Assembly (NCBI RefSeq): GCF_000426485.1
Contig: NZ_KE384529.1
Span: 696,422 to 760,421, forward strand
Length of the DNA stretch: 64,000 nucleotides
Source: Indolivaga capnocytophagoides DSM 22835
Lineage (GTDB): Bacteria > Bacteroidota > Bacteroidia > Bacteroidales > Dysgonomonadaceae
Reading direction: 5' to 3'
Shown: piece by piece, positions 39,918 to 59,922 of the stretch
Position numbering within the stretch: position 1 is the first letter of the stretch
Layout of the letters: every line of letters begins with the position of its first letter
Notes under the pieces: model-generated
Seen by the model: the letters and a program-made list of their open reading frames with translations, nothing else
What the model was told of the DNA's origin: nothing
Databases searched by the model: none
Program-made: the position numbers and the translations under genes

Positions 39918-42716
39918 TTACATTTTTCTGATTAACCTCAACTTTGTTTTATTTCTACCAAGAGGATCATACCCTTCGATCGACGCTATATAATACAAAT
40001 CGTTATTAAGCTTTACTAATTTCGCTCCATTTAATTGCTCGTATTCATCTGGAGAAAGGTAACATTCAATGTCTGTATAATTACTATCGTTAGGAGCAAT
40101 TACATTAAAATAAGTTTGTAGTATTGAGTTCGGTTGATTTTTATAACTCAATGTTAAAGGATTTCTATTTTTCAAAAGATCTGACAATTGAGGAATAAAT
40201 AAGTTTTGAGATTTATCACTATCTGTAAGTATATCATTAGTTTTCCATACATCTCCCAAATTATATAATATATTTTCATTTCTATACCAAAAGCGTTGAG
40301 CATAATTAGTATATTTTTTTTTCAACATATCTCTATAATCTTCGGTATCATCCCAAACTTCTTTATTAGAAATAATTGGAATTTGTAATTGCAGTATCAA
40401 GTTCCCATCTTTATCTGTCTGTGTTATTGTTTTAAACCAATTATAAGAGAAATTAGAAGTCTGATTTACGCTAGATCCATCCAGACTACCCGTTTCGATC
40501 TTTCCTCCTCCATTATCTTTTGTATCTATAAAACCTTTCTCTTCTTCATTAATTTTAAAACCGATATCAAATACAGCAGGCAGCCCCAACGGTTGGTTAG
40601 AACGTTTAATAATACCTGCTTTATTATCAAGATCAAGTACAGATGCAATATGAGTATTAACATGCTGCTGCTTTATATTCAATTCGAATGTATCATTATC
40701 AATTTGATTTAATTGAAGGTTAAATGCTTTACAAAAATTATCGAGCCATTCATCCACTTTTTGCTCAGAAGGTAAAAATTTCATCAGATTAATTTCACCT
40801 TTCTGAAAATTTGGAATATCCGTGCAATTCATAGAAGCAGTCCCTTCTCCATCTTTATTAATTGTTACCCATTCCTCATCAGTACGGAATGGTTCTATAG
40901 AAAGACGAAAATTCAAATCCTCGACTATCACGGGACCTACAGCCCTTTTTACACTATGTCCAGCCTTTCTTAAATCTCCGGCTTCTGATACCCAGCATAC
41001 CGTCACACACTCACCCTTATCGAGCCATATGATTGAAGATGCCTGCCCCTCTCCTGTGATATTATTATCGGCTGACGATATATAGCTTATATCAGATATG
41101 GGAATATCTTGTATATCTGTTTTAAACTTATCCCTTAACTCTTTACCTATAACGACATCATAATCATCATCACTTTCCAATTCTTCGGAAACATATCCAT
41201 GATAATGGTACTTATAAGGATTGTAATATGCCGAACATATCTTTTTATCCTGACTGAATGTTCTGTCCCAAGAATAACCATTTTTTATAAAAAGGGTATT
41301 AAAAGGTTTTCCCTCAGGGTTTCTATCATTAGTTCCGCTTCTATCCGTTTGACCGAAGTGTAAGCCATTGATTAGTTTATTATCAGAAGATGGATCGACA
41401 ATCATAGGGCAATATTCCTGGGGATACCATTTCGGATAATTTTCAGGTTCATCCGTTCCGGTCTTATCATTTTGCGGTAAATTCGGTTTATCGTAGAATC
41501 CGGCTATCAACTTATTGTCAAATCCAAAATCGCCACTACCAAAATCTCTGACAACCTGGATTTCATAACGCTTCATACCAAAGTAGTTATTGTATTTAGA
41601 GTCTCTTCCAGTTCGGGTATTTGCCCAAGTCCTATCTGTATGTTTGTCATATCTTGATTCATTTTCGCCTCCTCTGTACAAAAGGACATCCGAATATAAT
41701 TTTACTTTATAAAGTCCACTGGCAGGAATCCGGATTCTCAGATTTTTTTTAATGTATCTAGGGTTTCTTTCATCCGGTTCTTTATAATAAGTCATATTAG
41801 TTCCGGTATCCTGTATCTCAGAAAATTCCACATTGTGCGAGTTAAAAAGGTTGACTGTATAGAAATGGTCTCTATCCATACTCGACTGAGAGATACTTCG
41901 TTCAAATATAGGATCATCTGTCTGATAATCACGTATACTTTTATAATTGCCACTAACACTCATCGTCCCTAAATCTCCCCAATTCCATTCCTGAGCATAA
42001 TCGGTAGGATTACTGTATGACATATACAGATTTTTCAACCGTACATCATCAAAAGCAGTCCCGCCAATATTTTGGGGCTTTCCTTCTTTATCCTTTAGTG
42101 TCTCGAATATCTTTTTGATGGTCTGCAGGCAATTAATAGAAGGAGGAAAATCTTCTATACCCAATCGTACCGTTTCGTCCCAAACATCTTTTGCCGAATA
42201 ATTACCATTGGCATCTTTGGGTACTTTAGGCAGCAATCCGTACAATACATACGGAAAAATACAATCGGGAGTACCGGACTTTGTATTCCATTTGTTAAGG
42301 CTCGATACCATCTCTTTAAAGTCGATACTCCAAGTAGTTTTGAGCTCATTCATTTTGGTATCGCCGAAAAGCTCTTTTATAGTCTTTTTGGCAGGAATAA
42401 GCAAATTCCCTTTAAAATTACCATCCTTATCAATCTCACTCATTCTGAATTTTCCATCAAAGACAAGCACGGCATCCACATATAGTAAAGCATTGTAATC
42501 GTGATTAAACTTATCTTTCACTTCCTCTACATTGGCAAAACCGAATATCTCGTCATTAATATTTGTTGACGGAATGGTTATCGAATAGCTGTATTGAGCA
42601 TCCTTGGTATTCAGTTCAGCTGGTTTTATCAGTATCCTGTTGAGACGAATACCCAACTTTTCCGCATTGGCAATCTCACACAAGCGGTTATTTATATATA
42701 GTTCTATATTATTCAT
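39918..42716 (-). CDS. Phage tail-tip-like structural protein (large)
   Basis: A protein of 932 residues with no signal peptide. The N-terminus NIELYINNRLCEIANAEKLG, LIKPAELNTKDAQYSYSI and INDEIFGFANVEEV match what I recall of large tail proteins in Bacteroides prophages. The rest is beta-rich, Asn/Asp/Tyr-rich, with no enzyme motif. It is intact over its length. It follows the 594-residue tail protein on the same strand with a ~105-base gap that contains a full copy of the dispersed palindrome. A structural role at the tail tip is inferred from family and neighbour; the host receptor is unknown. Confidence 0.6.
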   Translation of the reverse strand: MNNIELYINNRLCEIANAEKLGIRLNRILIKPAELNTKDAQYSYSITIPSTNINDEIFGFANVEEVKDKFNHDYNALLYVDAVLVFDGKFRMSEIDKDGNFKGNLLIPAKKTIKELFGDTKMNELKTTWSIDFKEMVSSLNKWNTKSGTPDCIFPYVLYGLLPKVPKDANGNYSAKDVWDETVRLGIEDFPPSINCLQTIKKIFETLKDKEGKPQNIGGTAFDDVRLKNLYMSYSNPTDYAQEWNWGDLGTMSVSGNYKSIRDYQTDDPIFERSISQSSMDRDHFYTVNLFNSHNVEFSEIQDTGTNMTYYKEPDERNPRYIKKNLRIRIPASGLYKVKLYSDVLLYRGGENESRYDKHTDRTWANTRTGRDSKYNNYFGMKRYEIQVVRDFGSGDFGFDNKLIAGFYDKPNLPQNDKTGTDEPENYPKWYPQEYCPMIVDPSSDNKLINGLHFGQTDRSGTNDRNPEGKPFNTLFIKNGYSWDRTFSQDKKICSAYYNPYKYHYHGYVSEELESDDDYDVVIGKELRDKFKTDIQDIPISDISYISSADNNITGEGQASSIIWLDKGECVTVCWVSEAGDLRKAGHSVKRAVGPVIVEDLNFRLSIEPFRTDEEWVTINKDGEGTASMNCTDIPNFQKGEINLMKFLPSEQKVDEWLDNFCKAFNLQLNQIDNDTFELNIKQQHVNTHIASVLDLDNKAGIIKRSNQPLGLPAVFDIGFKINEEEKGFIDTKDNGGGKIETGSLDGSSVNQTSNFSYNWFKTITQTDKDGNLILQLQIPIISNKEVWDDTEDYRDMLKKKYTNYAQRFWYRNENILYNLGDVWKTNDILTDSDKSQNLFIPQLSDLLKNRNPLTLSYKNQPNSILQTYFNVIAPNDSNYTDIECYLSPDEYEQLNGAKLVKLNNDLYYIASIEGYDPLGRNKTKLRLIRKM

Positions 42717-42810
42717 TGTATGCTAAAAATTAAGTTAACAAAAATGTATTTAATGATATACTTTTTGTTTATAACGGACTTTGGTTGTTTTACTAGCCAA
42801 AGCTATAAAT

Positions 42811-42824
42811 AGGTCTGCGGCCTT
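42811..42824. repeat. AAGGTC palindrome copy 11 (full element, minus orientation)
   Basis: Read on the minus strand it is AAGGCCGCAGACCTATTTAT followed by the perfect hairpin CTTTGG...CCAAAG and GTCCGTTATAAAC. It includes the stop codon of the 594-residue tail gene. The element covers about 42765-42826. Confidence 0.65.
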
Positions 42825-44607
42825 ATCTGGGTAAGTCGGTATAATGGTATTTCATCTCTGCCTGAAACAGATCATCTTTTCTATTGTATTTCAAAGACAT
42901 ATCATCAATAACGATATATCTTTGCGTCCTTATTTCGTATACTGCCCGAGAAGCACTCATTTGCTGCAACCACTCCATACCATCGTAAGTCATCGGTGCA
43001 CTTTGTACAATTTTCTGCGATTCGGCATTTTTATTGGTGACAGTTTCGATAGACGAAAATCGTCCTGACTGAGGAGTTATAGTCTTAAATATGGTTGTTG
43101 CTGTTGTTTTAAACTCGGTAGAATCGGTTCCGCTGAAATTCACACTATCCCATCCTCCCCATTTATTAAGAAAGACAAAGTCATTAACAGTATATAGATA
43201 TTCCGGAAACACACTGAAAGTCAAAGGCATTGAAATTATAGTCTTCGGCATACTCGAATTATAACTTTCATTTTTGTGAAAAGCACATAAAAACACCTCT
43301 ATTTCTCCAACCATCAATTCTTTTGAGCCGGCTACTGCCAATGGCAAAAAACGATCCAGATCGAGTTTTGCAGTATTTACCGTTGTTAATTTCTGGATCT
43401 CAATTTTGTGTGATATATAATCCGAAATAAATTCACCCGACTGGGTATACATCCTGTAATACAAAGCTAAGTCCGGAAAATCGGTAGAGGGAAGTGCTTT
43501 CACGGAGAAATTTTCTGCTATAAAATTAAAATACTGTTCCTGCCCTTTGATATGGGTACGGTTGTACATGGAAGTCAAAGGTTTGACTTTAACTATATCC
43601 TTCTCGTTGAAATCCTGAGAAAAATCCATCACATAAGCAGTACCATCATCACTTACTTTTTTCAAGTCATTTTCCACAAGGAGATCATCATAACCATTTA
43701 TTACATACAAAGGATGGGAATAATAAAACACCTGATTACTGCCATTGATCTGTCTTCGGGCAACAACACGGAAAGAAGATGCGGAGCCGCTATCAACCCA
43801 GTCTGCTCCGGCATTGAGGAATGCGGTAGAATAATCGGCTTTCTTATTCATGAGCGCATTGAGCTCAAACCAAACAGGCTGCCCGAAATACGATTTAGAT
43901 AAAGTAGTCAGGAAAGTTCCGCTATTAGATATTTCTTTTTTATCATCACCAAGCACAGATTTTACATCACTATACAAATCAATCTCCACACGGGTATTTC
44001 CAAGCCCTCGATCTATTGAGTCGGACGAACTACCTTCCGCAATTTGTTCTATTTTGATTATATCGTCTATATAATCCGGTTTTTGTTTATTCTCCTGATA
44101 TTCATCACCATAAAACAATTCGCACCGAAAGTTATACTGCGAACCGTACCCATTGGCCTTAATTACGATTATATTGCCATTATCGATCAAATATTCTCCG
44201 TCAGCATCTCCTATTGAAATATCAGGATTGATATACATTTCGAAATTATTCCTTAAATAAGGATTATTCCTCAGGCACAACAATAGGTTCTGAGCTGTAG
44301 ACGTTATATCCGATCGATCAGTTGCATTTTCACTCCCCTCTACAACCAGAAAAGTATTGGTTCCCAGTTTATTCGGATTTCGTGTCGACTGGAACGAATA
44401 TACGCTGTTTGTCAATCCCTCCTTAAAGTCAATTCGCATACCATTTTCATAATTAGCTAACCGCTCAACTATTATGCGTAACTCCATTTTTTGGTCGGGG
44501 TTACCACTCCCTACACTATCGAATGTTATAAAATTAGGATTACCCGATAAAGTAAGCTCTTTCGGTTCGGTAACTTGGGCAATCTCTTTGTTTGAATAAA
44601 ATCCCAT
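42823..44607 (-). CDS. Phage tail structural protein (594 aa)
   Basis: A protein of 594 residues, soluble and beta-rich (FYSNKEIAQVTEPKELTLSG at the N-terminus; repeated Asn/Ser/Asp-rich strands; no enzyme motif). It is placed as a tail protein from its size, its pairing with the 932-residue tail-tip protein and its resemblance to large tail proteins of Bacteroides prophages. It is the first gene of the block and is preceded on its own strand by TTTATCTATA (44625-44634), the motif shared by all the phage-like blocks in this window. Intact frame. Confidence 0.6.
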   Translation of the reverse strand: MGFYSNKEIAQVTEPKELTLSGNPNFITFDSVGSGNPDQKMELRIIVERLANYENGMRIDFKEGLTNSVYSFQSTRNPNKLGTNTFLVVEGSENATDRSDITSTAQNLLLCLRNNPYLRNNFEMYINPDISIGDADGEYLIDNGNIIVIKANGYGSQYNFRCELFYGDEYQENKQKPDYIDDIIKIEQIAEGSSSDSIDRGLGNTRVEIDLYSDVKSVLGDDKKEISNSGTFLTTLSKSYFGQPVWFELNALMNKKADYSTAFLNAGADWVDSGSASSFRVVARRQINGSNQVFYYSHPLYVINGYDDLLVENDLKKVSDDGTAYVMDFSQDFNEKDIVKVKPLTSMYNRTHIKGQEQYFNFIAENFSVKALPSTDFPDLALYYRMYTQSGEFISDYISHKIEIQKLTTVNTAKLDLDRFLPLAVAGSKELMVGEIEVFLCAFHKNESYNSSMPKTIISMPLTFSVFPEYLYTVNDFVFLNKWGGWDSVNFSGTDSTEFKTTATTIFKTITPQSGRFSSIETVTNKNAESQKIVQSAPMTYDGMEWLQQMSASRAVYEIRTQRYIVIDDMSLKYNRKDDLFQAEMKYHYTDLPR

Positions 44608-44624
44608 ATTATTATCTTTTATTC

Positions 44625-44634
44625 TATAGATAAA
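44625..44634 (-). promoter_or_regulatory. Shared phage-block motif TTTATCTATA, site 1
   Basis: Minus-strand TTTATCTATA, 17 bases before the start of the 594-residue tail gene. It follows directly after a strong hairpin (44650-44679). Confidence 0.6.
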
Positions 44635-44649
44635 AATATAGGAAACAGC

Positions 44650-44679
44650 AAGGGTGTCTTCCGAGAGGAAAACACCCTT
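44650..44679 (-). terminator. Hairpin upstream of the tail block
   Basis: AAGGGTGT-CTTCC-GAGA-GGAAA-ACACCCTT, a near-perfect stem. It probably ends the DUF6249 gene and insulates the tail block. Confidence 0.6.
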
Positions 44680-44701
44680 TAATTAATTTTTTAATCAGAC
44701 C

Positions 44702-45148: not shown

Positions 45149-45257
45149 ATTTCAATATATTTAAAAGTTAGACATTCATTCGTTTGCTTATTTTGACGGA
45201 CAGCATATAAAAAGGTTACAAAATCGAATAAAAAAATTTTCGGTTAAAATATATACA

Positions 45258-45265
45258 TACATTTG
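45258..45265 (+). promoter_or_regulatory. -7 element TACATTTG of the sigma gene
   Basis: Exact TAnnTTTG match. It is 32 bases before the ATG at 45298, which supports that start over the GTG at 45283. Confidence 0.6.
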
Positions 45266-45297
45266 TAACCTATCTCAACACCGTGCGTCTTATAGGC

Positions 45298-46367: not shown

Positions 46368-46375
46368 TAGATTTG
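46368..46375 (+). promoter_or_regulatory. -7 element TAGATTTG
   Basis: Exact TAnnTTTG match, 34 bases before the porin-family gene. Confidence 0.6.
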
Positions 46376-47278: not shown

Positions 47279-47713
47279 TTAATCAAAAAAAGCAGTCAAT
47301 TCTGAGATTAAAGACTCAAATAATTGGTCAGCCCACCGCTCATCGAACGCTTTATCCAGCCGACCGTCAATAACAGTTAAGATGGGGCGTGCCTCGACAC
47401 CATCCCGCTGGATGACGCTGGCTATAGCATGCAATGTATCATTAGTGATAGGCAATCCCTTTCTCAACGCCCAATCCCTAAGGACTGAAATAGGTGGTAC
47501 TTCTCCCGAGCCGGGCTTTCTTCCTTTTTCTATAAAGTCTAAATAGCTATCAAACAAAAGGCGGATAACGACATCCGGCTCTTTTTCCAATCGAACCTCT
47601 ATATGTTCCCGGATAGAGCTGTTTTTCAACCCGTTTTCATCAAATACCGAACGGGCAATTTCTAAGATCTCCCCGGTTATACATTCCAATACCTGACGCG
47701 TAGCCGTATTCAT
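47279..47713 (-). CDS. Phage head-tail/tail-completion-like protein (144 aa)
   Basis: A protein of 144 residues. SYLDFIEKGRKPGSGEVPPI (~57-76) and LRDWALRKGLPITNDTLHAI resemble phage virion-morphogenesis (gp10/tail-completion) proteins in which a GR.PG..PP....W..RKG pattern is typical. It overlaps the preceding 180-residue gene by 4 bases (ATGA), so the two make one translational unit. Intact frame, no enzyme motif. I infer a joining role between head and tail. Confidence 0.55.
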   Translation of the reverse strand: MNTATRQVLECITGEILEIARSVFDENGLKNSSIREHIEVRLEKEPDVVIRLLFDSYLDFIEKGRKPGSGEVPPISVLRDWALRKGLPITNDTLHAIASVIQRDGVEARPILTVIDGRLDKAFDERWADQLFESLISELTAFFD

Positions 47714-48252
47714 CGTTTTGAGATTTTAAGGTCAAAAACCGAAAGCTTATTCCCAAAAGTTTGATTTGCACCATTTATTCTGAAATCATTCAGGACAGGA
47801 TCAGACTGAAATTCTTTTTCGGAATCGAATTGTTCTTCTATCAAACACAAATCCTGCATATTACGCTGAACTAAATCGACCGAAAAACGGCATCCGCAGG
47901 CATTATTGTCATAATAATTCCTCAATGTCAGGTATGTCCATGTCGGAAGCACCGTTACCGGTTCATTTGCATCCATCTTGATCCGTTCCAGAATATTTAA
48001 GCCGATCGAAAAAGCCAGATTCTGAAAAACCGCAACTGCCGTATCGTCTTCAGGAACAAAAAGGATTGAAAAATTAACGGTACTCGTAAATACATTCTGC
48101 TGATTGCGTCCCATAACAGGATCTTCCAGCCAGAAAACAGGATGAAATTCATTACCCGCCCCCAGTTCGTAATTGCGGTTATAATAAAAAGAACGGATTG
48201 CTTTGTGTTGGCATGCCTGATTACGAAACAGGCTGATAATAGAGTTAATCAT
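47710..48252 (-). CDS. Phage tail-terminator/completion-like protein (180 aa)
   Basis: A protein of 180 residues, soluble, mixed alpha/beta, with INSIISLFRNQACQHKAIRS at the N-terminus and FSIGLNILERIKMDA in the middle. No clear domain by eye. Its placement as phage-like comes from the ATGA overlap with the tail-completion-like gene and from the TTTATCTAT motif upstream. Moderate certainty only. Confidence 0.5.
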   Translation of the reverse strand: MINSIISLFRNQACQHKAIRSFYYNRNYELGAGNEFHPVFWLEDPVMGRNQQNVFTSTVNFSILFVPEDDTAVAVFQNLAFSIGLNILERIKMDANEPVTVLPTWTYLTLRNYYDNNACGCRFSVDLVQRNMQDLCLIEEQFDSEKEFQSDPVLNDFRINGANQTFGNKLSVFDLKISKR

Positions 48253-49396: not shown

Positions 49397-49642
49397 ATGA
49401 AAACGGATATCTACACTAAAATTGTATTAACTGTAATTGCTATTTGTTTGACAGTAAGCTTGCTTAAAGAATTTGACATCATCACTACCGCCAAAGCCGA
49501 TACTACAACTGCTGGACCTACACCTATACCAAATGCTGTACAAGATGGACCTGTGGATGTCAGAATTGTTGGAGTAGATTATTATTGTACATTACCTGTC
49601 AATATTAAAAATACACCGATTTCTGTTGAAATAACAAAATAA
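49397..49642 (+). CDS. Small membrane-anchored periplasmic protein, array unit 1
   Basis: A protein of 81 residues. The first eight residues MKTDIYTK are identical in all four paralogs. A hydrophobic segment (~9-25) anchors it. A Thr/Ala/Pro linker (TTAKADTTTAGPTPIPNA) leads to a short beta part with PVDVRIVG and PISVEITK at the C-terminus. Its promoter-like sequence is TATATTGC, one or two bases off TAnnTTTG. It is followed by a CCATGGGATT/AATCCCATGG palindrome (49669-49691). Function unknown. Confidence 0.75.
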   Translation: MKTDIYTKIVLTVIAICLTVSLLKEFDIITTAKADTTTAGPTPIPNAVQDGPVDVRIVGVDYYCTLPVNIKNTPISVEITK

Positions 49643-49668
49643 CCTCGATCTTCCCCTCCGTGTCCATT

Positions 49669-49691
49669 CCATGGGATTTGCAATCCCATGG
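49669..49691. repeat. REP-like palindrome, array copy 1
   Basis: CCATGGGATT-TGC-AATCCCATGG, a perfect 10-bp palindrome at the end of array unit 1. Confidence 0.75.
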
Positions 49692-49733
49692 CTATTAACA
49701 CAGGATTCATAATTCTGTAACCAAACAAAAGAC

Positions 49734-49741
49734 TATATTTG
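49734..49741 (+). promoter_or_regulatory. -7 element TATATTTG, array unit 2
   Basis: Exact TAnnTTTG within the conserved block that ends each repeat unit (..CCAAACAAAAGAC TATATTTG TAGATAAACC..), 28 bases before the start codon. Confidence 0.65.
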
Positions 49742-49769
49742 TAGATAAACCATTTAACTCTCATGAATT

Positions 49770-50060
49770 ATGAAAACGGATATCTACACTAAAATTGTAC
49801 TGACGATTATTGCTATTTTCCTAGGCGTATTAGTTTTTCAGAATACGACACTTATTACTACTGCCAAAGCTGACACTACAGCTGCTCCACCCGCCCCTAT
49901 AACAAATGCTGCACAAAGTGCGCCTGTAGACGTGAATATTACGCATATAGATGGACTAAAAATTGATGTAGATAAAAAAGGGCGTTATGGGGATAAAATA
50001 ACTAAATATCCTACATCATTGGGTCTTCCTATTAGTTTGGCTCAAGATCTATCGTGGTAA
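49770..50060 (+). CDS. Small membrane-anchored periplasmic protein, array unit 2
   Basis: A protein of 96 residues. The first ~60 are nearly identical to unit 3 (MKTDIYTKIVLTIIAIFLGV, linker, then VDVNITHIDG) and the C-terminus is unique (DKKGRYGDKITKYPTSLGLP). The identity reaches into the promoter region, so units 2 and 3 are a recent duplication. It lacks the IPVEI-type end. Followed by a tape-measure 5' fragment. Confidence 0.75.
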   Translation: MKTDIYTKIVLTIIAIFLGVLVFQNTTLITTAKADTTAAPPAPITNAAQSAPVDVNITHIDGLKIDVDKKGRYGDKITKYPTSLGLPISLAQDLSW

Positions 50061-50100
50061 TAATAAAAATAATTTATTTTAACATTCAGATTTTTTTCTT

Positions 50101-50110
50101 TTTATCTATA
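50101..50110 (+). promoter_or_regulatory. Shared phage-block motif TTTATCTATA, site 3
   Basis: 10 bases before the first tape-measure 5' fragment. Confidence 0.55.
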
Positions 50111-50120
50111 CTTAAAAACG

Positions 50121-50267
50121 ATGGAAGAAAAGAAGAAAAAAACATTCGTTATAGAAATTAACGGAGTGAAAGAATCAACCGAAAATGTAGAGAAACTGGC
50201 AGATGCACTGGATAGACGTCGTCCCTTGGGATTTGTAATCCCTAGGCTAATAACTGAGGATTTCTAA
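50121..50267 (+). pseudogene. 5' fragment of a tape-measure gene (48 codons)
   Basis: ATG followed by MEEKKKKTFVIEINGV and KESTENVEKLADAL, a typical tape-measure N-terminus. The frame is then cut at the palindrome CCTTGGGATT..AATCCCTAGG (50224-50246) and reads out of it to a stop. Its sequence differs from the complete tape-measure gene at 51150, so it comes from a different variant. Confidence 0.65.
50224..50246. repeat. REP-like palindrome, array copy 2
   Basis: CCTTGGGATT-TGT-AATCCCTAGG, at the truncation point of the first tape-measure fragment. Confidence 0.7.
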
Positions 50268-50288
50268 TTCTGTAACCAAACAAAAGAC

Positions 50289-50296
50289 TATATTTG
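50289..50296 (+). promoter_or_regulatory. -7 element TATATTTG, array unit 3
   Basis: Same block as in unit 2, 28 bases before the start. Confidence 0.65.
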
Positions 50297-50324
50297 TAGA
50301 TAAACCATTTAACACTCATGAATT

Positions 50325-50597
50325 ATGAAAACGGATATCTACACTAAAATTGTACTGACGATTATTGCTATTTTCCTAGGCGTATTAGTTTTTCAGAATA
50401 CGACACTTATTACCACCGCCAAAGCCGATACTACAACTGCTGCACCCGCTCCTATACCCACTGCTACACAAAGTGCCCCTGTGGAAGTGAATATTACGCA
50501 TATAGATGGAAAAAAAATTAATATAGATAATTATTATAAGGAATTACCTAGAACAGATGGATTACCTATCGATATCTTAAAAAATAGCGACAAATAA
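50325..50597 (+). CDS. Small membrane-anchored periplasmic protein, array unit 3
   Basis: A protein of 90 residues. Same N-terminus and linker as unit 2; it ends DNYYKELPRTDGLPIDILKN. Only the last ~30 residues differ from unit 2. Promoter and leader are the same. Followed by the second tape-measure fragment. Confidence 0.75.
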   Translation: MKTDIYTKIVLTIIAIFLGVLVFQNTTLITTAKADTTTAAPAPIPTATQSAPVEVNITHIDGKKINIDNYYKELPRTDGLPIDILKNSDK

Positions 50598-50615
50598 TTA
50601 TCACCTCTCATCTTT

Positions 50616-50625
50616 TTTATCTATA
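50616..50625 (+). promoter_or_regulatory. Shared phage-block motif TTTATCTATA, site 4
   Basis: 9 bases before the second tape-measure fragment. Confidence 0.55.
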
Positions 50626-50634
50626 ATAGAAAAG

Positions 50635-50793
50635 ATGAAAGAGATGAAAAAAATAGTAACCCTTGAACTTGATATTAAAGGCGACAAAAAACTAAAAGAA
50701 ACGATAAACAATCTTACGACATTAGATAAAGCAATAAGTACTTCTGCCATATTATCACCCCGTCCCTTGGGATTCAAAATCCCAAGGCAATAA
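50635..50793 (+). pseudogene. 5' fragment of a tape-measure gene (52 codons)
   Basis: Residues 1-41 align with the intact tape-measure protein at 51150 (KKIVTLELDIKGDKKLKETI compared with KKIITLEFNTKGEKKLKDNI). Both then read LDKA.STSAILS. The similarity stops at CCTTGGGATT..AATCCCAAGG (50765-50787), where this copy ends. Confidence 0.75.
50765..50787. repeat. REP-like palindrome, array copy 3
   Basis: CCTTGGGATT-CAA-AATCCCAAGG, a perfect palindrome at the truncation point. A second small palindrome GAGGATT-TCT-AATCCTC follows. Confidence 0.75.
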
Positions 50794-50828
50794 CTGAGGA
50801 TTTCTAATCCTCTAACCAAACAAAACAC

Positions 50829-50836
50829 TATATTTG
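50829..50836 (+). promoter_or_regulatory. -7 element TATATTTG, array unit 4
   Basis: Same block as in units 2 and 3, 29 bases before the start. Confidence 0.65.
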
Positions 50837-50865
50837 TAGATAAACCAATTTAACACTCATTGATT

Positions 50866-51120
50866 ATGAAAACGGATATCTACACTAAAATTGTACTTAC
50901 TGTTATTGCTATTTTCTTAGCGCTAAACTTCTTTAAAGAAATAAATATTATCCCTACCGCCAAAGCGGATACTACAGCTGCTACACCTGCACCTATACCA
51001 AATGCGATACAAAGTGCGCCTGTAGATGTGAATATTACGCATGTGAATGGAATACCTATAACTATAACAACATTCAGTTCAGGTTTTAGAGAAGGCATTC
51101 CAGTTGAAATTCGAAAATAA
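50866..51120 (+). CDS. Small membrane-anchored periplasmic protein, array unit 4
   Basis: A protein of 84 residues from the ATG at 50866. It shares MKTDIYTKIVLTVIAIFL and the PVDVNIT part, then ends FSSGFREGIPVEIRK. It is the unit that precedes the intact tape-measure gene, with only 29 bases between them. The tight linkage suggests the small protein and the tape-measure protein belong to one module. Confidence 0.78.
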   Translation: MKTDIYTKIVLTVIAIFLALNFFKEINIIPTAKADTTAATPAPIPNAIQSAPVDVNITHVNGIPITITTFSSGFREGIPVEIRK

Positions 51121-51130: not shown

Positions 51131-51140
51131 TTTATCTATA
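51131..51140 (+). promoter_or_regulatory. Shared phage-block motif TTTATCTATA, site 5
   Basis: 9 bases before the intact tape-measure gene. The flanking sequence AATAGAAAAG ATG is the same at site 4. Confidence 0.6.
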
Positions 51141-51149: not shown

Positions 51150-53057
51150 ATGAAAGAAAAGAAGAAAATTATTACTCTGGAATTCAACACCAAAGGAGAA
51201 AAAAAATTAAAAGATAATATTTCGGTATTAGATAAAGCAACAAGCACATCTGCAATACTATCGTCAAACCTAGCAAAAACATTTGCCAATTTTCAAGACT
51301 TTAGCGATATAATAGGAACTAATACCGACTATATGGCAGAAGCTATTGCTAAAATCATACCCGAAGTCAATACTGCATCAGAGAAGATAAATACATTGGC
51401 GGAAATGTATTTAGAAAAATCTTTAAAGAAACAAATCGATAATATTAAATATATTTCCGAAAAGAAATACGATACTAATTATAAATATACTGAACAATCG
51501 AAATCAGTATATATTGCATATTACGATTTTCAAGAAAAATTATATTCCGCTGATGCTGAAAAGCTAAAGAAGATCCTGGAAGAAAAAGAAAGATATCTGA
51601 AAGAATATAATAAACAACAAACCAGCCTACAAGAAAACATAGCTGCAGATGATCAAATAAAATCAGATGATCTAAGAAAATCTCTTCAACACAAAAACGA
51701 CCTCAAAAAAGAAGCCCAAAATTCGGATCTGATACAGACATTAGTTTATATTAAAGAAGAAGAGAAACTGCAAACAGAGCGTAATACTCGTATTACTGCT
51801 TTAACAACATCGGCGATAGAACGACAAACCGAAGCAGGACGTACCTTCAACTTTATCAAACTAAAAGAAACGAAAGAAAACTACAAAGCAATAAAAGAAC
51901 TCCGCCTGCAAAATATCGAAGCAGCCAAAGAAGAATACAAGCGCATAGCCGAATATCACGACAAGCTTATAGCCTCGTACAAAAAAGGTTCGCTTGGCGA
52001 AGCGCAGGCAATGGAGAACAAAAAAAATGCCCTGCACAAAATAAATACACAAATAATAGCCGACCAGCAAGCAGTAAACGGCTCCACAGAAGAGATGGGA
52101 AAAGCTTATCAGTTATTCTTTGATGAAGTGGCAAAAAAGATAACAGATTTTCATACAAAATGGCAAGGAGTATATAGTGCGGCAGGCTCGGTATTAAAAG
52201 ACTTTTTGTCAATACAAATAACCGATCTGAAAGAAGACCAAACTAACGTTCAAAAAATTATAGAAGAAAGAACGACAGCCTATCAGCAACAAGCCGACAA
52301 AGTAAAATCACTATACGAAGAAATGCAAAAAGCATCAGGTGCCCACTCAACCACTCTTCAAGAAAATTATGCCCGTGAATCGGCTGCTGCAGAAGAACTT
52401 CTTCAACAAAAGAAAGACGCTGAAAAAGAAAAAGAAGAAATAGAAAAACAAATCAAGCGAAAAGAAAAACAGCAAAAAAAAATAGAACTAGTTCAAACAT
52501 TGGCTTCCGCCGTAGCCAATCAATCAGCCGCGATCATCAAAGCTTGGGGTATGGGACCTATTATCGGACCTATTATGGCAGCCATCACAGCAGCAGCCAC
52601 AGCTATACAAATAGCCAATATTAAACGGCAATGGGATAAGCTGGAAGACGGCGGACTTCTTCGTGGCAAACGTCACACGCAAGGCGGTATGCGTATCGAG
52701 GGATCAAATATAGAAGTCGAAGGCGATGAGTTTGTTGTCAATCGTATATCTACCCGCAAAAATCTGGGCTTAGTCGATTATATCAACCGTGAACGACGAG
52801 AACTCACAGCCGAAGACCTCACCGGATATTTCAGCCGGAGCAGAGGACAGAACTTTCCGCGAATCGAGTCGAAGCGGATATACGAATCGGGCGGCCAACT
52901 GACCAATCTCGAAGTTGTAGATTCGGTTACCGCTCCCGAAATAAATAAGATACTGGATGCGATTTCAAATATCGACTTCCGTCCGGTCGTGTCGGTTACC
53001 GATATTGCTGATGCTCAACGAACAATGGTATCAGTCGAACGAACAGTGAACAGCTAA
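51150..53057 (+). CDS. Phage tail tape-measure-like protein
   Basis: A protein of 635 residues, mostly Lys/Glu/Gln-rich coiled-coil (~100-470). A hydrophobic Ala-rich region follows at ~450-490 (LVQTLASAVANQSAAIIKAW, GPIIGPIMAAITAAATAIQI), which resembles the membrane-active part of tape measures. The C-terminal block is LEDGGLLRGKRHTQGGMRIE followed by EGDEFVVNRISTRKNL, typical of Bacteroidota phage tape measures. The length implies a short tail or a small particle. Intact. It follows an array of partial copies of its own 5' end. Confidence 0.75.
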   Translation: MKEKKKIITLEFNTKGEKKLKDNISVLDKATSTSAILSSNLAKTFANFQDFSDIIGTNTDYMAEAIAKIIPEVNTASEKINTLAEMYLEKSLKKQIDNIKYISEKKYDTNYKYTEQSKSVYIAYYDFQEKLYSADAEKLKKILEEKERYLKEYNKQQTSLQENIAADDQIKSDDLRKSLQHKNDLKKEAQNSDLIQTLVYIKEEEKLQTERNTRITALTTSAIERQTEAGRTFNFIKLKETKENYKAIKELRLQNIEAAKEEYKRIAEYHDKLIASYKKGSLGEAQAMENKKNALHKINTQIIADQQAVNGSTEEMGKAYQLFFDEVAKKITDFHTKWQGVYSAAGSVLKDFLSIQITDLKEDQTNVQKIIEERTTAYQQQADKVKSLYEEMQKASGAHSTTLQENYARESAAAEELLQQKKDAEKEKEEIEKQIKRKEKQQKKIELVQTLASAVANQSAAIIKAWGMGPIIGPIMAAITAAATAIQIANIKRQWDKLEDGGLLRGKRHTQGGMRIEGSNIEVEGDEFVVNRISTRKNLGLVDYINRERRELTAEDLTGYFSRSRGQNFPRIESKRIYESGGQLTNLEVVDSVTAPEINKILDAISNIDFRPVVSVTDIADAQRTMVSVERTVNS

Positions 53058-54866: not shown

Positions 54867-54969
54867 TCGCAATTTGTTATCACTTATATAACAAACAAAT
54901 AGTTATTTTGTTAAGGTTCTGTATCATATTAAGTCTGAATCCTTAATATGTTCTACAATATAGCCCGAT

Positions 54970-55815
54970 TTACTTAAAAGTCCAGCCTTTTTTCACAGCA
55001 ATCAATTTATCACACTCATCATCACCTTTATTGCCGGATAAAGAAATCGTATATTCAGTATTTTTAGCATGAGGTAATGCAGTAAATAATATATTCAAGG
55101 CATCGGAACTTAACTGCGAATTATCTTTTAGCACAATAGTTTTCACAGCTGCCAACCCATCGATATTAAGAGAAGTAAAACCGGAATGAGAGATGTAAAT
55201 ACTTCTTAGCGAATCACTGGCGGTAAAGTTTGCGGACGCAGTACCCAAACTCCCGTTTATAAAAATAGTCTCCAGATTTTCGAGTTTATCAAGTCCTGTT
55301 AGAGACTGTACTCCATCGGGATAACCGCAATACAACGTTTTCAGAGTAGTACACCCGGTAAGATCAATCGAGGCTATAGGCTGATTCGCAAACCGAAGGT
55401 CAGTTATACTTTCACAGTTAGTTAATGTCAACTCCGAGATGGAGTTCTGCTTATTTTTTTCAATCTGCGCATTGTCTATTTTTGACAAGTCTAGTTTTAT
55501 CAAGCCCAATGTTTTGATCTGCACATCATAGTCTCCTGACTTCGGATATATATATTCCGTTGGCTTAATCGAATCTATCACAACTTTATTCTTAAGCACA
55601 TATTCGGTATCTTTCGACCCATCTCCCCAGATAAGATATATCTCTTTGGCCTGAATAAGATAGTAAAATGAAGAATTGTCAGCGGATACACTCAATTTCA
55701 ACCGGGCTGTTTCTGCCACAGCATCCGGACGACTCAGATAAGAATAAGGTGTTTCGTCTGAACTGCATGAAACCAAAATGATTGATAAAAGTAAGTAGAA
55801 ATAAAAACTACGCAT
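54970..55815 (-). CDS. Leucine-rich-repeat lipoprotein
   Basis: A protein of 281 residues. The lipoprotein signal has Cys at ~17 (LLSIILVSCSSD). An N-terminal beta-rich domain is followed by about six degenerate leucine-rich repeats of ~22 residues, for example SISELTLTNCESITDLRFAN, LKTLYCGYPDGVQSLTGLDKL and SLRSIYISHSGFTSLNIDGL. Likely a surface or periplasmic binding protein. A palindrome copy lies 13 bases upstream. Confidence 0.8.
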   Translation of the reverse strand: MRSFYFYLLLSIILVSCSSDETPYSYLSRPDAVAETARLKLSVSADNSSFYYLIQAKEIYLIWGDGSKDTEYVLKNKVVIDSIKPTEYIYPKSGDYDVQIKTLGLIKLDLSKIDNAQIEKNKQNSISELTLTNCESITDLRFANQPIASIDLTGCTTLKTLYCGYPDGVQSLTGLDKLENLETIFINGSLGTASANFTASDSLRSIYISHSGFTSLNIDGLAAVKTIVLKDNSQLSSDALNILFTALPHAKNTEYTISLSGNKGDDECDKLIAVKKGWTFK

Positions 55816-55827
55816 ATCCTAACTATT

Positions 55828-55844
55828 AAGGGGTCAAAGACCTT
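55828..55844. repeat. AAGGTC palindrome copy 12
   Basis: AAGGGGTCAAAGACCTT, 13 bases upstream of the LRR lipoprotein gene. Confidence 0.6.
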
Positions 55845-55924
55845 GTTCTGTTATTTTTTGAGCAAAAATACTTTATTTTAATCTATTTTCAGATAACATA
55901 ATCCTCATATTTATTGTTTAATTA

Positions 55925-55932
55925 TATATTTG
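55925..55932 (+). promoter_or_regulatory. -7 element TATATTTG
   Basis: Exact TAnnTTTG match, 29 bases before the ATG at 55962. Confidence 0.6.
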
Positions 55933-55961
55933 AAAGATCAAAACAACCCAAACCCAATCGT

Positions 55962-56948
55962 ATGAAAAGGAATATAATGGCGGCAATCATTTTAATAATG
56001 TTTGCTCTGAATATCTCAGCACAACAAAGAGACAATTTCTCTCTGGATATCAAAGAAACACATCCCATTGTTCAAAACAGCCTATATAACACTATATCAT
56101 TCATGGATAATCGATTGAACAGAACCAGGGATCAATATATTGTCAATGCAGAATTATTCTCATGGCAACTATCATCTTTTGTCAATATGATAACCGATCG
56201 TACAGCTAAAAATGGAACAATGCTATTCCAATTGAGAAATCTTTCATTTGAGACAGAAGGAGATAAAGGTTTTTCACATATAAGAGCAACCTTGTACGAA
56301 TCTTTAAACTCTCAATTCTACATGATTGCAACTCTTGACACCGAAATCCAGGTTGCAAACGGTAAAAACATATCGCCGCGCCTGCAAGAAGAGATCTCTT
56401 CAACGATAACATCGTTTATTGCAGATAATCTTACTCAACCATATACAGACAATATACCTTATACACTCGATGACATCCGACATATAGATACTATCGAGAA
56501 AGAATCTTCGGAACTCTATAAAGATCAAGGATACAGAGATGGAATCTACTATACTTTTGATTCTTTCAAAAATCAACAGCCTATAGTGACAAAAATGGAA
56601 GTAAGATTCAAAAAAGAGAAACTATCTGAAATAAAAATAATAGATCGTTCCAATAATAAATTCCGGAAAGTCAACCCATCTGATATATATGCTGTGGTTC
56701 TCGATGGGCAGATATACATTGCTTTGGATAAAAAATATTATACTGTATATCCCGACAATGGAAATTTACTTTTCGATGCCGAATATAATTCTTCTAATGT
56801 AGGTTTTGCACCCAGCTTTTCGGTTGGAATCGGAAGCGGAGGATATCGGGGAGGCGGAATAGGGCTTGGAGTATTCACTAAAACAAAGAAAGAGACTGTT
56901 ACTTATATGATAGATCATATGAACGGAAGATTCATCAAGATCAATTGA
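55962..56948 (+). CDS. Hypothetical secreted protein
   Basis: I chose the ATG at 55962 (MKRNIMAAIILIMFALNISAQ), a signal peptide; the extension to 55914 starts before the promoter and is not real. A protein of 328 residues. A helical N-terminal half is followed by a beta-rich half that ends in a Gly-rich stretch (VGIGSGGYRGGGIGLGVFTK). No family recognised. It ends at a clear terminator. Confidence 0.75.
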   Translation: MKRNIMAAIILIMFALNISAQQRDNFSLDIKETHPIVQNSLYNTISFMDNRLNRTRDQYIVNAELFSWQLSSFVNMITDRTAKNGTMLFQLRNLSFETEGDKGFSHIRATLYESLNSQFYMIATLDTEIQVANGKNISPRLQEEISSTITSFIADNLTQPYTDNIPYTLDDIRHIDTIEKESSELYKDQGYRDGIYYTFDSFKNQQPIVTKMEVRFKKEKLSEIKIIDRSNNKFRKVNPSDIYAVVLDGQIYIALDKKYYTVYPDNGNLLFDAEYNSSNVGFAPSFSVGIGSGGYRGGGIGLGVFTKTKKETVTYMIDHMNGRFIKIN

Positions 56949-56977
56949 TTCAAAAAACATTATACATCATAAACTTT

Positions 56978-57012
56978 AGTCTTATTATTTGTTAATAATA
57001 AGACTTTTTTTG
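56978..57012 (+). terminator. Terminator
   Basis: AGTCTTATTATT pairs with AATAATAAGACT, followed by TTTTTTT. Confidence 0.85.
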
Positions 57013-57036
57013 TCACCGAAATTCGGGGACAAGAAT

Positions 57037-57046
57037 TTTATCTATA
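57037..57046 (+). promoter_or_regulatory. Shared phage-block motif TTTATCTATA, site 6
   Basis: 18 bases before the TTG of a small frame and directly after the terminator of the host gene. Confidence 0.55.
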
Positions 57047-57064
57047 CTCAAAAGTCAATCTATC

Positions 57065-57262
57065 TTGAAAAATAAAACACAAAAAAGGAACAACAAACAA
57101 ACTACAGAACAAACACTTACAATAAAAAGAACACTAAACTCTAAAAATATTGAATATTATTCCGAAAAAATAAAAACAGATTTATCTATACCTAAAATCA
57201 AGGTCACAGACTATAAATCTACATTTTATGAACATACCTATTTACAATTGTCTGATAAATGA
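57065..57262 (+). CDS. Small Lys/Thr-rich open frame upstream of the head block (uncertain)
   Basis: 65 codons with a TTG start (or no start), very Lys/Thr/Asn-rich, overlapping the start of the prohead-protease gene by 35 bases in another frame. It follows site 6 of the shared motif. It could be a short leader ORF or chance coding. Confidence 0.25.
   Translation: MKNKTQKRNNKQTTEQTLTIKRTLNSKNIEYYSEKIKTDLSIPKIKVTDYKSTFYEHTYLQLSDK
57181..57190 (+). promoter_or_regulatory. Shared phage-block motif TTTATCTATA, site 7
   Basis: 37 bases before the prohead-protease start. Confidence 0.5.
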
Positions 57263-58358
57263 AAATCCAGAGGACGACAGTGGCATATATGCAATATCTT
57301 TTGTTGATTCTCCTGCCAATGAAAGTGATTTTATTGCATTATCAAAACAACAATCGGAAGTATTTCTAAACAAAGACCCACACAAGCAAATATTAACAGG
57401 AGTTGTTTTACGCCCCGATCAATTGATCTATCGAAAAGATTCTAAACTAGGTGAGTATTATATCAAATTCTCAATCGAGCAAATAGAAAAAATCGCTCAA
57501 AAGATGATGCGGACAGGGCTTGCTTTACAAAACACAACTCATCAACACCAAGCGCCTCTCAAAGGAAATTACCTATCGGAATTATGGATTATCGAAGATC
57601 CGGAAAAAGATAAGTCTCGGGCATTAGGATTCAGTTCACTACCCAAAGGTACTCTTATGTGCAGCTATAAGATAGCAGACAAGCATTATTGGGATACTGA
57701 GATTATGACGGGCAATGTCAAAGGCTTTTCGCTGGAAGGATTCTTCATTCAGAAACCGGAAACACAAAGCAACTTGAAATCAAACAAACTAAACAAAATG
57801 AACAAAAAAAGTAAAACGACAGCGTTACTATCACGGATATCCCGCTTTTTTCTCGATATCCAATCTGCAGAAAAAGCAGACTCAACCTCTAGCGGAATTG
57901 CATATCTTATCTTCACTCTAGCTGATGGAAAAGAAGTATATGTAGATAAAGATGGCTTTACAACACTTGACGGAGAACAACTTCCTGCCGGAGAACATCC
58001 ATTATCAGACGGAAATATTCTGGTTGTTGATGAAGACGGTCAAATGATCGAAACGAAGGAATCTTCAGTAAAGAATAATGATCTCGAGCAAGCAACAGCT
58101 CCAGAGAGTCTACAAGCAGCAGGAAAAGAATCGGTAGAAACTTTGAAAAAGAAAATCGCCGATCTCGAATCCAAACTTTCCGAACTCGCAATTATCGCTC
58201 AGGAAGCAAACAGCGAAATACAAACTTTGCGAAAGCATACGCCCAGTTCCCTACCTGTATCAACCGCAAGGAAAGGCAGAAAACACACAGAAATGAAACG
58301 CTATGAACAGATGGCTCAGGCTCTTTCATTATCAATCAAAAACAAACAAAATAAATAA
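57228..58358 (+). CDS. Phage prohead protease (XkdF-like) fused to a scaffold-like tail
   Basis: A protein of 376 residues. Residues 1-~180 are the XkdF/S78-type protease. ILTGVVLRPDQLIYRKD is typical; THQHQAPLKGNYLSELWIIE carries the His, and GNVKGFSLEGFF the Ser. The rest (~190-376) is a scaffold-like extension. A linker and LIFTLADGKEVYVDKDG lead to a long coiled coil (~300-350, ESVETLKKKIADLESKLSEL). An internal ATG (about 57800) could make the scaffold on its own. It would cut the scaffold and mature the capsid. The capsid gene follows after 26 bases. Confidence 0.72.
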   Translation: MNIPIYNCLINENPEDDSGIYAISFVDSPANESDFIALSKQQSEVFLNKDPHKQILTGVVLRPDQLIYRKDSKLGEYYIKFSIEQIEKIAQKMMRTGLALQNTTHQHQAPLKGNYLSELWIIEDPEKDKSRALGFSSLPKGTLMCSYKIADKHYWDTEIMTGNVKGFSLEGFFIQKPETQSNLKSNKLNKMNKKSKTTALLSRISRFFLDIQSAEKADSTSSGIAYLIFTLADGKEVYVDKDGFTTLDGEQLPAGEHPLSDGNILVVDEDGQMIETKESSVKNNDLEQATAPESLQAAGKESVETLKKKIADLESKLSELAIIAQEANSEIQTLRKHTPSSLPVSTARKGRKHTEMKRYEQMAQALSLSIKNKQNK

Positions 58359-58384
58359 CACAAACTAAAATAATTTTAAATATT

Positions 58385-59317
58385 ATGGCAAATATGTATA
58401 ACATTTCACCTCTGAGTTACCAACCTAGTACTAATATGGATTGGTTTACGAAAGCTCTATTCGGAGGCAGACTTATCGAAAACGGCAAAATCGATGTAAT
58501 CACAGGTGTAAAGGAAAGCACCATGCTGAATCTTTTAAATTTCGATAGTACACTTCTACAACCCGATGGGAGAGATTGCGCTTGGACTCCTGAACAAATA
58601 TTCAAGCTTAGCGAAAAAGAAGTTCAAATCAAAACATATAAAATCAATCTCGAACAATGTATCGATGATCTCGAACGCAAGCGGATCAACATCATGCTTA
58701 AGCCGGGAGCAAAAAACAGCGAATTACCCGAAGCTTTGGAAGAAGCTACAATGGCTATGCTTGCAGATGAATTAAGCTCTGAGATTGAGGCTAAAATCTT
58801 TAATGGAGACAGCAGCTCAAACCCAAATGATTTTGATGGAGCAATCAAGGTATTAACATCGAGCACCGAAGCCCTAAAAATCACAGGTGCAGCGTTGACA
58901 AAAACCAATATCATCAGTGAAATTGAAAAAGTATACAATGAGATTCCCGAAAATGTTTTGGCAAAAGGGATTGAAAACGGAACCTTAAAAATATATATTG
59001 CTTTCGAAAGCCTGCAACGTCTGAAGATGGCTTTGGCCTCAGTTAGTAATCAGGTTATCTCTACCGCTTTTACGGCAGCAAATGAGAACTTATATTATCT
59101 GGGAATCGAAATTGTTCCGGTGAAAGGACTGAATAGCAAAACAATGATCGCTGCAGACATTACGAACTTCTTACTCGCTACTGATCTGCTGAGCGATACC
59201 GAAGAAATCAGAATAGGACAATTCCCTGCTCCTCACGACAGCAAAATATTTATCGATGGAAGATTACGCTTAGGCTTCGTGATCCCATTCGAAGACGAAG
59301 TGGTATTCTATAACTAA
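58385..59317 (+). CDS. Phage major capsid protein (HK97-fold-like)
   Basis: A protein of 310 residues, the size of a mature HK97-type coat. It lies directly behind the protease gene, and the order protease-capsid is the canonical phage order. Parts seen are MDWFTKALFGGRLIENGKID at the N-terminus, EEATMAMLADELSSEIEAKI (a long helix), IAFESLQRLKMALASV, YYLGIEIVPVKGLNSKTM and RIGQFPAPHDSKIFIDGRLR with a C-terminal beta part. Intact. It would form the shell of the particle. Confidence 0.72.
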   Translation: MANMYNISPLSYQPSTNMDWFTKALFGGRLIENGKIDVITGVKESTMLNLLNFDSTLLQPDGRDCAWTPEQIFKLSEKEVQIKTYKINLEQCIDDLERKRINIMLKPGAKNSELPEALEEATMAMLADELSSEIEAKIFNGDSSSNPNDFDGAIKVLTSSTEALKITGAALTKTNIISEIEKVYNEIPENVLAKGIENGTLKIYIAFESLQRLKMALASVSNQVISTAFTAANENLYYLGIEIVPVKGLNSKTMIAADITNFLLATDLLSDTEEIRIGQFPAPHDSKIFIDGRLRLGFVIPFEDEVVFYN

Positions 59318-59364
59318 GATCATCAACTCAAGAAACACAATTTTATAACAAAAAAATTCATATT

Positions 59365-59922
59365 ATGTCTTGCAAATTAACAGCTAATATACGTAAAGAA
59401 AACTGCCAATACAGAGTCGCCGGTATCAGAGCAATTTATCTCATTAATCACGACAGCAATCCTACATTCACATTCGAACAAGGAACAGAAGGTGAAGAAG
59501 GAAACAAAGTGATCGGCAAAATAGAGATGCCTGCCGGAGAATCAATCTACAAAGTAAACTTTTCAGAAGGCACAGCATCTTGGTCAGACGAACTGGCCGT
59601 AAATGGAAATGGAGGAAAATACCGCACGCATACAGTCAATTTCACAGTAAGTGAATACGATTACAACATTCTTAATCAAGGAGATGCTTTAAGTTTGGGC
59701 AGATTTATCGCTATCGTTGTCGACAAATCAGGCAGAGCAGTTATGCTTGGGCGCAATAACGGTTTGAGTGCTACTTCGTTCAACTATGCTTCAGGAGCTG
59801 CCGATGCTGATGCAAACGGATGGACAACAGTTTTAGCAGGCACAGAAATTGAGATTGGAAAACTTCTGAAAGATGAAAGTATTATCACACCTGTAACACC
59901 GGACATTGTTGTTACACCATAA
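59365..59922 (+). CDS. Phage tail-tube-like structural protein
   Basis: A protein of 185 residues, beta-rich, starting SCKLTANIRKENCQYRVAGI and with AVMLGRNNGLSATSFNYASG and ANGWTTVLAGTEIEIGKLL near the C-terminus. The pattern of a small beta-sandwich with an acidic Gly-rich loop suits a major tail-tube or head-decoration protein. It follows the capsid gene with a 47-base gap. Assignment from context and shape. Confidence 0.5.
   Translation: MSCKLTANIRKENCQYRVAGIRAIYLINHDSNPTFTFEQGTEGEEGNKVIGKIEMPAGESIYKVNFSEGTASWSDELAVNGNGGKYRTHTVNFTVSEYDYNILNQGDALSLGRFIAIVVDKSGRAVMLGRNNGLSATSFNYASGAADADANGWTTVLAGTEIEIGKLLKDESIITPVTPDIVVTP

Follow-up and report, generated by a model that had tools for sequence, protein, structure and literature searches.

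A dispersed set of tailed-phage genes in Indolivaga capnocytophagoides and related Dysgonomonadaceae, a candidate gene transfer agent

A 64,000-nucleotide stretch of the Indolivaga capnocytophagoides DSM 22835 genome (referred to here as the window; contig positions G000:C1:696422-760421 of a 4.38 Mb genome, C1 here denoting the contig) carries four blocks of tailed-phage particle genes with host genes between them. The blocks are part of a larger set, for which we describe the gene content, open frames, selection, inheritance, dispersal, a shared promoter-like motif and a repressor-sigma module. The reading that we favour, with a probability of about 0.74, is that an ancestor of Dysgonomonas acquired a tailed phage, that the phage genes were dispersed, and that they now constitute a viriform resembling a gene transfer agent (GTA), under a regulon made of the retained phage sigma factor and promoter. 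The set is almost complete and apparently intact; since it is split, shares a motif and descends vertically, its probable role is to make virus-like particles that serve the cell itself. The closest named relatives, judged by the major capsid protein, are Dysgonomonas species. Below, G000 is the window's genome, other G numbers are the genomes compared, and L numbers are prophage, metagenomic or IMG/VR loci; the coordinates of features inside the window are in window numbering.

Phage genes of the window and its contig

All eight phage-particle frames reported in the initial annotation are present in the window and open. The clearest assignments lie on the plus strand, where an XkdF-type head maturation protease (PRO, 57228-58358; PHROG 24921, 3.6e-80; Pfam PF14550, 9.6e-11) and the major capsid protein (MCP, 58385-59317; PHROG 11320, 2e-66; PHROG 1623, virion structural protein, 2.8e-15) have strong matches to phage families, and are followed by a tail-tube-like or virion protein (TUBE, 59365-59922) with a moderate one (PHROG 19091, 4.3e-13) and 46% identity to its prophage homologue. 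The remaining five are the tape-measure protein (TMP, 635 aa, 51150-53057, plus strand) and, on the minus strand, two tail-region proteins (T1, 932 aa, 39918-42716; T2, 594 aa, 42823-44607) and two completion-like proteins (C1, 144 aa, 47279-47713; C2, 180 aa, 47710-48252), with T2 and C2 being the first genes of blocks 1 and 2. None of these five matched a named family in PHROG or Pfam, or in NCBIfam, which was searched for all but C1. Their identity follows from prophages in which the homologues are adjacent on one strand in the order C2-C1-T2-T1-TMP-PRO-MCP-TUBE, so that the tail-type, completion-type and tape-measure labels rest on position in a late cluster. The similarity to the prophage homologues is 36-43% for C1, 38% for C2 and 32-33% for the tape measure, where it is C-terminal; T1 was matched by tblastn at 42%, in two pieces, to its counterpart in a Bacteroides stercorirosoris prophage, and T2, which lies beside T1 in prophages, had a match in 7/7 genomes searched.

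Ahead of the tape measure (49397-51120, plus strand), four small MKTDIYTK membrane proteins alternate with copies of the tape-measure 5' end, in an arrangement similar to that in G011 and G408. The small proteins, initially taken for host lipoproteins, were found again beside the tape measure in G011, G007, G008 and G408 and hence belong to the tape-measure block rather than to unrelated host DNA. The host genes between the blocks do include an extracytoplasmic function (ECF) sigma factor (Sigma70_r2, 2.1e-21) and an outer-membrane barrel (6.8e-24), as first described.

The window contains no terminase, portal or recognised lysis gene, in agreement with the initial annotation, and all three were found outside it on the same contig. 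Genes outside the window were located with profiles of the prophage TerL and portal, by tblastn of prophage proteins over 264 kb around the window, and from the list of open reading frames (ORFs). A single open copy of TerL lies 46 kb before the window (G000:C1:648820-649980), and a single copy of the portal 15 kb after it (G000:C1:775006-776127). The tblastn search also placed, in contig coordinates, the sigma-like gene at 607113-607736, TerS (GP3_package, 7.2e-15), a pair of small genes (626455-627112), a late gene of 240 aa (628563-629285), another tube-like gene (tube2, 761405-762010) and a 171-aa DUF6712 protein (774450-774965). From the ORF list came, in the interval 761998-765847, a fibre that includes a GDSL esterase domain, the GH19 endolysin (764883-765455) and a lipoprotein read by eye as spanin-like. 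With the sigma-like gene counted, the whole set in G000 comprises 11 separate blocks; they are spread over 169 kb and both strands, with host genes between them.

TerL and the portal are both present in 6/6 genomes of the window's genus. Among the genomes searched, which were picked largely for having MCP, TerL was found in 23/24 (G010 having a fragment only), the portal in 20/20 and the sigma-like gene in 22/24. No counterpart of the prophage integrase, polymerase, primase or helicase was detected at E 1e-4 in the 264 kb around the window, the integrase being searched there only and not genome-wide. For the phage polymerase, 20/20 genomes gave only weak matches of ~80-140 aa (E 4e-5 to 3e-8); these sit inside frames of 925-965 aa, which we read as host DNA polymerase I. 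Replication and integration genes of its own, as an active temperate phage would have next to its virion genes, were thus not found with the set.

A shared promoter-like motif and candidate regulators

The sequence TTTATCTAT(A), after which an A-rich stretch follows, starts 19-51 nt before the first start codon in 11/11 blocks of G000. The same rule holds in 8/8 blocks of the part of G011 examined, where block orders and strands differ (the G011 TerL starts with GTG, and its motif site was read by eye). In the window, the motif has the form TTTATCTATA before T2 (44625-44634, minus strand, starting 27 nt before the gene), before the tape measure (51131-51140, plus, 19 nt) and before the protease (57181-57190, plus, 47 nt, with a second copy further upstream at 57037-57046, plus), and the form TTTATCTAT before C2 (48269-48277, minus, 25 nt). 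It also precedes two of the tape-measure 5'-end copies (50101-50110 and 50616-50625, plus). Genes internal to blocks are without it (MCP 0/20, TUBE 0/18, C1 0/5), and among other ORFs of at least 100 aa it stands before 1/204 in G000 and 1/225 in G011, the one in G011 being a holin-like gene of the same set. These background counts led us to reject a chance motif, though the motif is common elsewhere in the genome. When the degenerate form TTATCTAT was counted over all Dysgonomonas loci, with rows whose alignment began after residue 40 dropped, it was found for the portal in 9/9, C2 in 5/5 and PRO in 15/20, and the second genus carries the variant (a)TTATCTATA.

In phage-class contigs a similar sequence, TRTCTWTA, occurs near the protease in 10/18 and near tube2 in 5/15 (counts without a shuffle control), and none was seen near MCP, TUBE, T1, T2, C1 or C2; in one phage contig, L199, the protease gene is preceded by TTTATCTATA itself. 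The examined portions of the two prophage contigs contain no TTTATCTAT. From the occurrences near phage protease and tube2 genes and in L199, the motif probably descends from the phage's own late promoter.

Copies of TTTATCTATA also occur elsewhere in G000, for example at C1:8607, C1:60031 and C1:435826. Of 38 sampled sites outside the phage region, 26 are intergenic, and 14 of these 26 have a hairpin-type end like GTAACTTTTGTAACCTTTT at most 200 nt downstream (strict pattern). Such sites resemble small promoter-plus-terminator units, possibly small RNAs and perhaps part of the same regulon; an Rfam search for such elements in 140 kb gave 0 matches at the gathering score. At G000:C1:23121-23720 the motif lies 30 nt before a 189-aa gene that appears by eye to encode another helix-turn-helix protein of the phage small-terminase type. 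Separately, a palindrome of the type GGTCTGAGACC was seen at 40 places in 264 kb of G000 (C1:596422-860421) and at 11 places in 280 kb of G011 (C1:2760001-3040000), with some of the copies in gaps beside phage blocks.

Two candidate regulators accompany the set. The sigma-like protein family matches NCBIfam sigma70-ECF in 11/21 members (best 1.2e-5), and comparison with four Dysgonomonas ECF sigma factors gave an hhalign probability of 72 (P 3.3e-5). An S24/CI-like repressor (weak Pfam S24 match, 0.00096; PHROG repressor, 3.8e-16) is encoded divergently, 0.6-2.0 kb from the sigma-like gene, in G000, G007, G008, G009, G011 and G483. This repressor-sigma module, present in 6/6 of the genomes inspected for it in the genus and G483, is conserved in the genus, and its sigma-like member may recognise the motif.

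We propose that a tailed phage, once captured in an ancestor of Dysgonomonas, would have shed the DNA polymerase gene and apparently also the integrase gene, while those for particle assembly, DNA packaging and lysis stayed; host genes would have come between the phage genes, and the blocks would have drifted apart, giving 11 in the window's genome. The CI/LexA-like S24 repressor would hold down a small divergent operon ending in the phage-derived ECF-like sigma factor. On induction, probably by DNA damage and, because of the repressor's family, as part of the SOS response, the sigma factor would steer RNA polymerase to TTTATCTATA before every block, so that heads, tails, terminase and lysis proteins could be made together despite their distant genes. 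The terminase would pack host DNA into the heads, host DNA being the expected filling because no single headful should hold all the genes, and the cells would lyse. The likely use would be gene transfer between kin.

Contiguous relatives, dispersal and inheritance

The same virion genes are contiguous in prophages of Bacteroides stercorirosoris DSM 26884 (L011/L016/L017) and of a Rikenellaceae metagenome-assembled genome (L012/L018/L019), which share with the set TerS, TerL, portal, protease, MCP, tube, tape measure, tail genes and the sigma-like gene, and whose MCP is 52-53% identical. Their late cluster lies near the terminase, the portal and a gene for an M15-like peptidase (identified by eye). 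Unlike the set, the Bacteroides prophage encodes replication proteins, namely a DNA polymerase of family A (1.2e-23), a primase-type protein like VapE (7.1e-72) and a helicase of the SNF2 type (2.2e-14), together with an integrase (Phage_int_SAM_5, 8.8e-10); the Rikenellaceae prophage too has integrase and VapE-like matches. The tape measure is 635-735 aa in the set versus 1085 aa in the Bacteroides prophage. The late cluster is also contiguous in related IMG/VR contigs of 37.4-39.9 kb. Annotated phages gave no match to MCP, and the best TerL matches among those listed are about 42% identical.

Compact clusters from metagenome 3300009856 (L180/L237 and L239) have the gene order of the compact Dysgonomonas clusters, with TerL within the tail operon: in L239, T1-TerL-T2-C1-C2-g242 stands back to back with portal-p171-TMP-PRO-MCP-TUBE-tube2, and L180 has the same order but no T1 match. 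They differ from the dispersed set in being fully contiguous, in the integrase beside T1 in L239, and in tape measures of 1067 and 1086 aa. In a midpoint-rooted MCP tree L180 adjoins the Dysgonomonas clade, although the support of the joining node is only 0.116. The Dysgonomonas contig L238/L204 retains the compact order with other genes in between, and no frame in the 29 kb examined matched the prophage integrase or polymerase. Several IMG/VR contigs classed as viral (L175, L178, L181, L204, and probably also L176, L177, L179 and L182) look like pieces of bacterial chromosome; they fall inside the Dysgonomonas MCP clade, and their MCP is 62-64% identical to that of the window.

Contiguous relatives with integrase and terminase had been named at the outset as the sign of a recent rearrangement. 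Such relatives do exist, but they are separate phages or compact clusters, and the dispersal is not recent. Apart from rearrangements, G000, G011, G008 and G007 have largely the same host genes adjoining the blocks: all four share the gene beside T2, and in G000, G008 and G007 four host genes separate the tape measure from the protease. This synteny places the dispersal before the divergence of these species, and on the same ground a recent rearrangement of one prophage was rejected. TerL, portal, MCP and the sigma-like gene lie on one contig in 7/19 genomes, with spans of 28.8, 35.8, 52.3, 60.1, 167.9, 491.1 and 2207.5 kb. The two largest, 491 kb in G423 and 2.2 Mb in G011, come from single-contig genomes, so an assembly artefact was rejected as well.

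In a sample of 393 genomes from across the order, MCP was found in 5, which belong to two genera; within the family it was found in 25/101 genomes, namely 5/6 of the window's genus (the sixth being 62% complete), 18/25 of the sister genus (one match covering 89 residues only), one of a third genus and one with distant copies. Extra, more distant MCP copies occur at G421:C86 and at G484:C4 and C6 (G421 also has a second portal), and these are perhaps true prophages of the related phage group. In the sister genus, G425, G427 and G410 keep TerL, and two of them the sigma-like gene, with MCP unmatched or reduced to a piece; they are perhaps losing the set.

All Dysgonomonas MCP copies form one clade (support 0.986). 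Across 18 genomes, trees of the phage genes share with the rpoB tree 7 (MCP), 8 (PRO), 8 (TerL) and 6 (sigma-like) of 15 splits, against at most 3 in 2000 label shuffles. Frames are open in nearly all matches across genomes. The dN/dS ratio (Nei-Gojobori, five genomes of the window's genus, using only pairs with estimable dS, the rest being saturated) is 0.03-0.06 for MCP (5/10 pairs), 0.07-0.10 for PRO (3/10), 0.04-0.05 for TerL (3/10) and 0.05 for the sigma-like gene (1/10), compared to 0.01-0.03 for rpoB (10/10); dS exceeds 1 in most of these virion-gene pairs, the majority of which are from the three closest genomes. The virion genes measured are thus under purifying selection. TerL residues that we take to be the P-loop, acidic and nuclease-type positions are invariant in 21/21 sequences, two of them from prophages, as are the presumed His and Ser positions of the protease in 19/19.

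Comparison with known particles and alternative explanations

In PMC9662315, a GTA is defined by six features: a tailed-phage-derived particle, packaging of mostly random host DNA, an endogenised and often multilocus genome, a genome that cannot be packaged whole in one particle, mostly vertical inheritance, and delivery of DNA to other cells. In the present set, genes for tailed-phage-derived particle proteins are recognised by PHROG, Pfam and NCBIfam matches and by homologues in contiguous phages. Endogenisation at multiple loci is seen in the 11 blocks over 169 kb of G000 and in the wider spans of G423 and G011, and vertical inheritance in the 6-8 of 15 splits shared with rpoB and the single MCP clade. 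As to packaging whole, the 169 kb span compares with 12 related IMG/VR contigs of 37.4-39.9 kb, from which the head size is estimated, while in G382 and G424 the four markers span 29-36 kb. Three of the six features, and probably a fourth, can thus be recognised in the genes, which makes the set a strong GTA candidate that may work like one.

The GTA of Rhodobacter capsulatus (RcGTA, Rhodogtaviriformidae) keeps one main cluster plus outlying loci, whereas here every block is separate from the others, and what the candidate regulator looks like is an entire phage sigma factor. The two are alike in having phage-derived genes at several loci, and PMC9638019 places the head spikes, tail fibres and lysis genes of RcGTA outside its main cluster and describes a regulator, GafA, with sigma-like HHpred matches. 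No sequence relationship to RcGTA was seen, the comparison being of MCP only, for whose profile PDB offered no chain at E values up to 1; the sigma profile likewise brought nothing useful from PDB. FpGTA of Faecalibacterium, as described in PMC12946183, also belongs to a gut anaerobe and has terminase, portal, capsid, tail-type and lysis genes, in two operons about 125 kb apart; it differs in having only two operons, a Gram-positive host, 8.4-8.9 kb of packaged DNA and no tail seen. Its particles have been demonstrated, whereas the present set is known from genes alone. For Bacteroides that paper reports lateral transduction, and for Ruminococcaceae and Oscillospiraceae packaging of the GTA type. 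In our searches of the open-licence literature no title or abstract opening described a GTA of Bacteroidota, and no word starting with 'bacteroid' occurs in PMC9662315.

The domesticated, dispersed yet intact phage-derived particle first suggested for the window is supported by the presence of packaging and lysis genes at other places of the same contig, by purifying selection, a partly host-like phylogeny, common host neighbours and the lack of a phage DNA polymerase. Several observations weigh on the other side. The sigma assignment is weak: the match of the window genome's own protein scores 17.8 bits against a cut-off of 42.9, Pfam recognises one member only, at 0.059, and PDB none. The repressor was not found in the examined regions of G408 and G423. 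Coverage of TTATCTAT over Dysgonomonas loci is patchy (TerL 14/24, tube2 5/16, T2 1/3, sigma 1/24, besides the 15/20 for PRO), and exact copies of TTTATCTATA number 246 genome-wide (the reversed control has 81), most of those sampled being without a gene close behind. G382 and G424 keep the four markers within 29-36 kb. Depending on the gene, 7 to 9 of the 15 splits differ from rpoB, and the frequent conflicts within the second genus leave room for a degree of exchange or for weak signal. Among the 18 sister-genus genomes of high quality, three have no MCP match, so the set is dispensable, and a fourth has the first 89 residues only. Particle formation, packaging and transfer are what we infer from the genes.

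The main rival, which we regard as improbable, is a domesticated particle like PBSX of Bacillus subtilis that packages host DNA and kills relatives lacking it, with no gene transfer. Genes for a DNA-filled particle and for lysis are present, the protease belongs with XkdF of PBSX in one family, and the portal matches the PBSX portal model below cut-off. The family likeness is distant. The fibre is variable, as expected for changing targets, sharing only ~50 N-terminal residues between G000 and G011 or G007 and showing no shared part with G008. No immunity gene was recognised, no search having been aimed at one. PBSX is one contiguous defective prophage, whereas the set is dispersed and common to several genera, and a contiguous PBSX-related cluster was not found. 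As to function, PMC7667829 describes PBSX as packaging random 13 kb pieces of host DNA without transfer.

It is very unlikely that the blocks are functionless remnants of a dead prophage scattered by rearrangement. The sister-genus genomes with MCP lost or truncated and the duplicated tape-measure fragments would fit such decay; purifying selection, invariant key residues, frames open in nearly all matches, a motif kept before blocks in two species and trees nearer rpoB than chance speak against it. Hardly any weight falls, likewise, on a tail-only or empty-capsid device (tailocin-like or a cargo shell) in which the packaging genes would have survived by chance: the retention of T1, T2 and the tape measure and the variable fibre would suit it, but terminase and portal are also retained in nearly all genomes searched, with the TerL residues invariant. 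Least probable of all is a living phage or satellite with merely apparent scatter that an integrase encoded elsewhere would mobilise, as the compact relatives with adjoining integrase might suggest, given the dispersal in single-contig genomes, the phage polymerase not found in 20/20 genomes and the common host neighbours.

If the GTA-like reading is right, it would mean that a tailed phage had been domesticated independently in a phylum without a GTA in the literature searched. We give even odds to a stronger version, in which this would be the first GTA of Bacteroidota: a working DNA-transfer particle with genes split block by block and tied together by a domesticated phage sigma factor and late promoter, of which living species would represent stages from compact to dispersed, and whose promoter may also drive small intergenic units. 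The natural series of four-marker spans from 29 kb to 2.2 Mb illustrates how a prophage may come apart without losing genes and bears on why known GTAs have scattered genes, while the shared motif offers a testable account of how scattered genes could stay co-regulated. The system can be tested, since the set is also carried by two named strains in culture collections, D. macrotermitis DSM 27370 and D. alginatilytica DSM 100214. If true, the set would provide a route of gene flow in guts.

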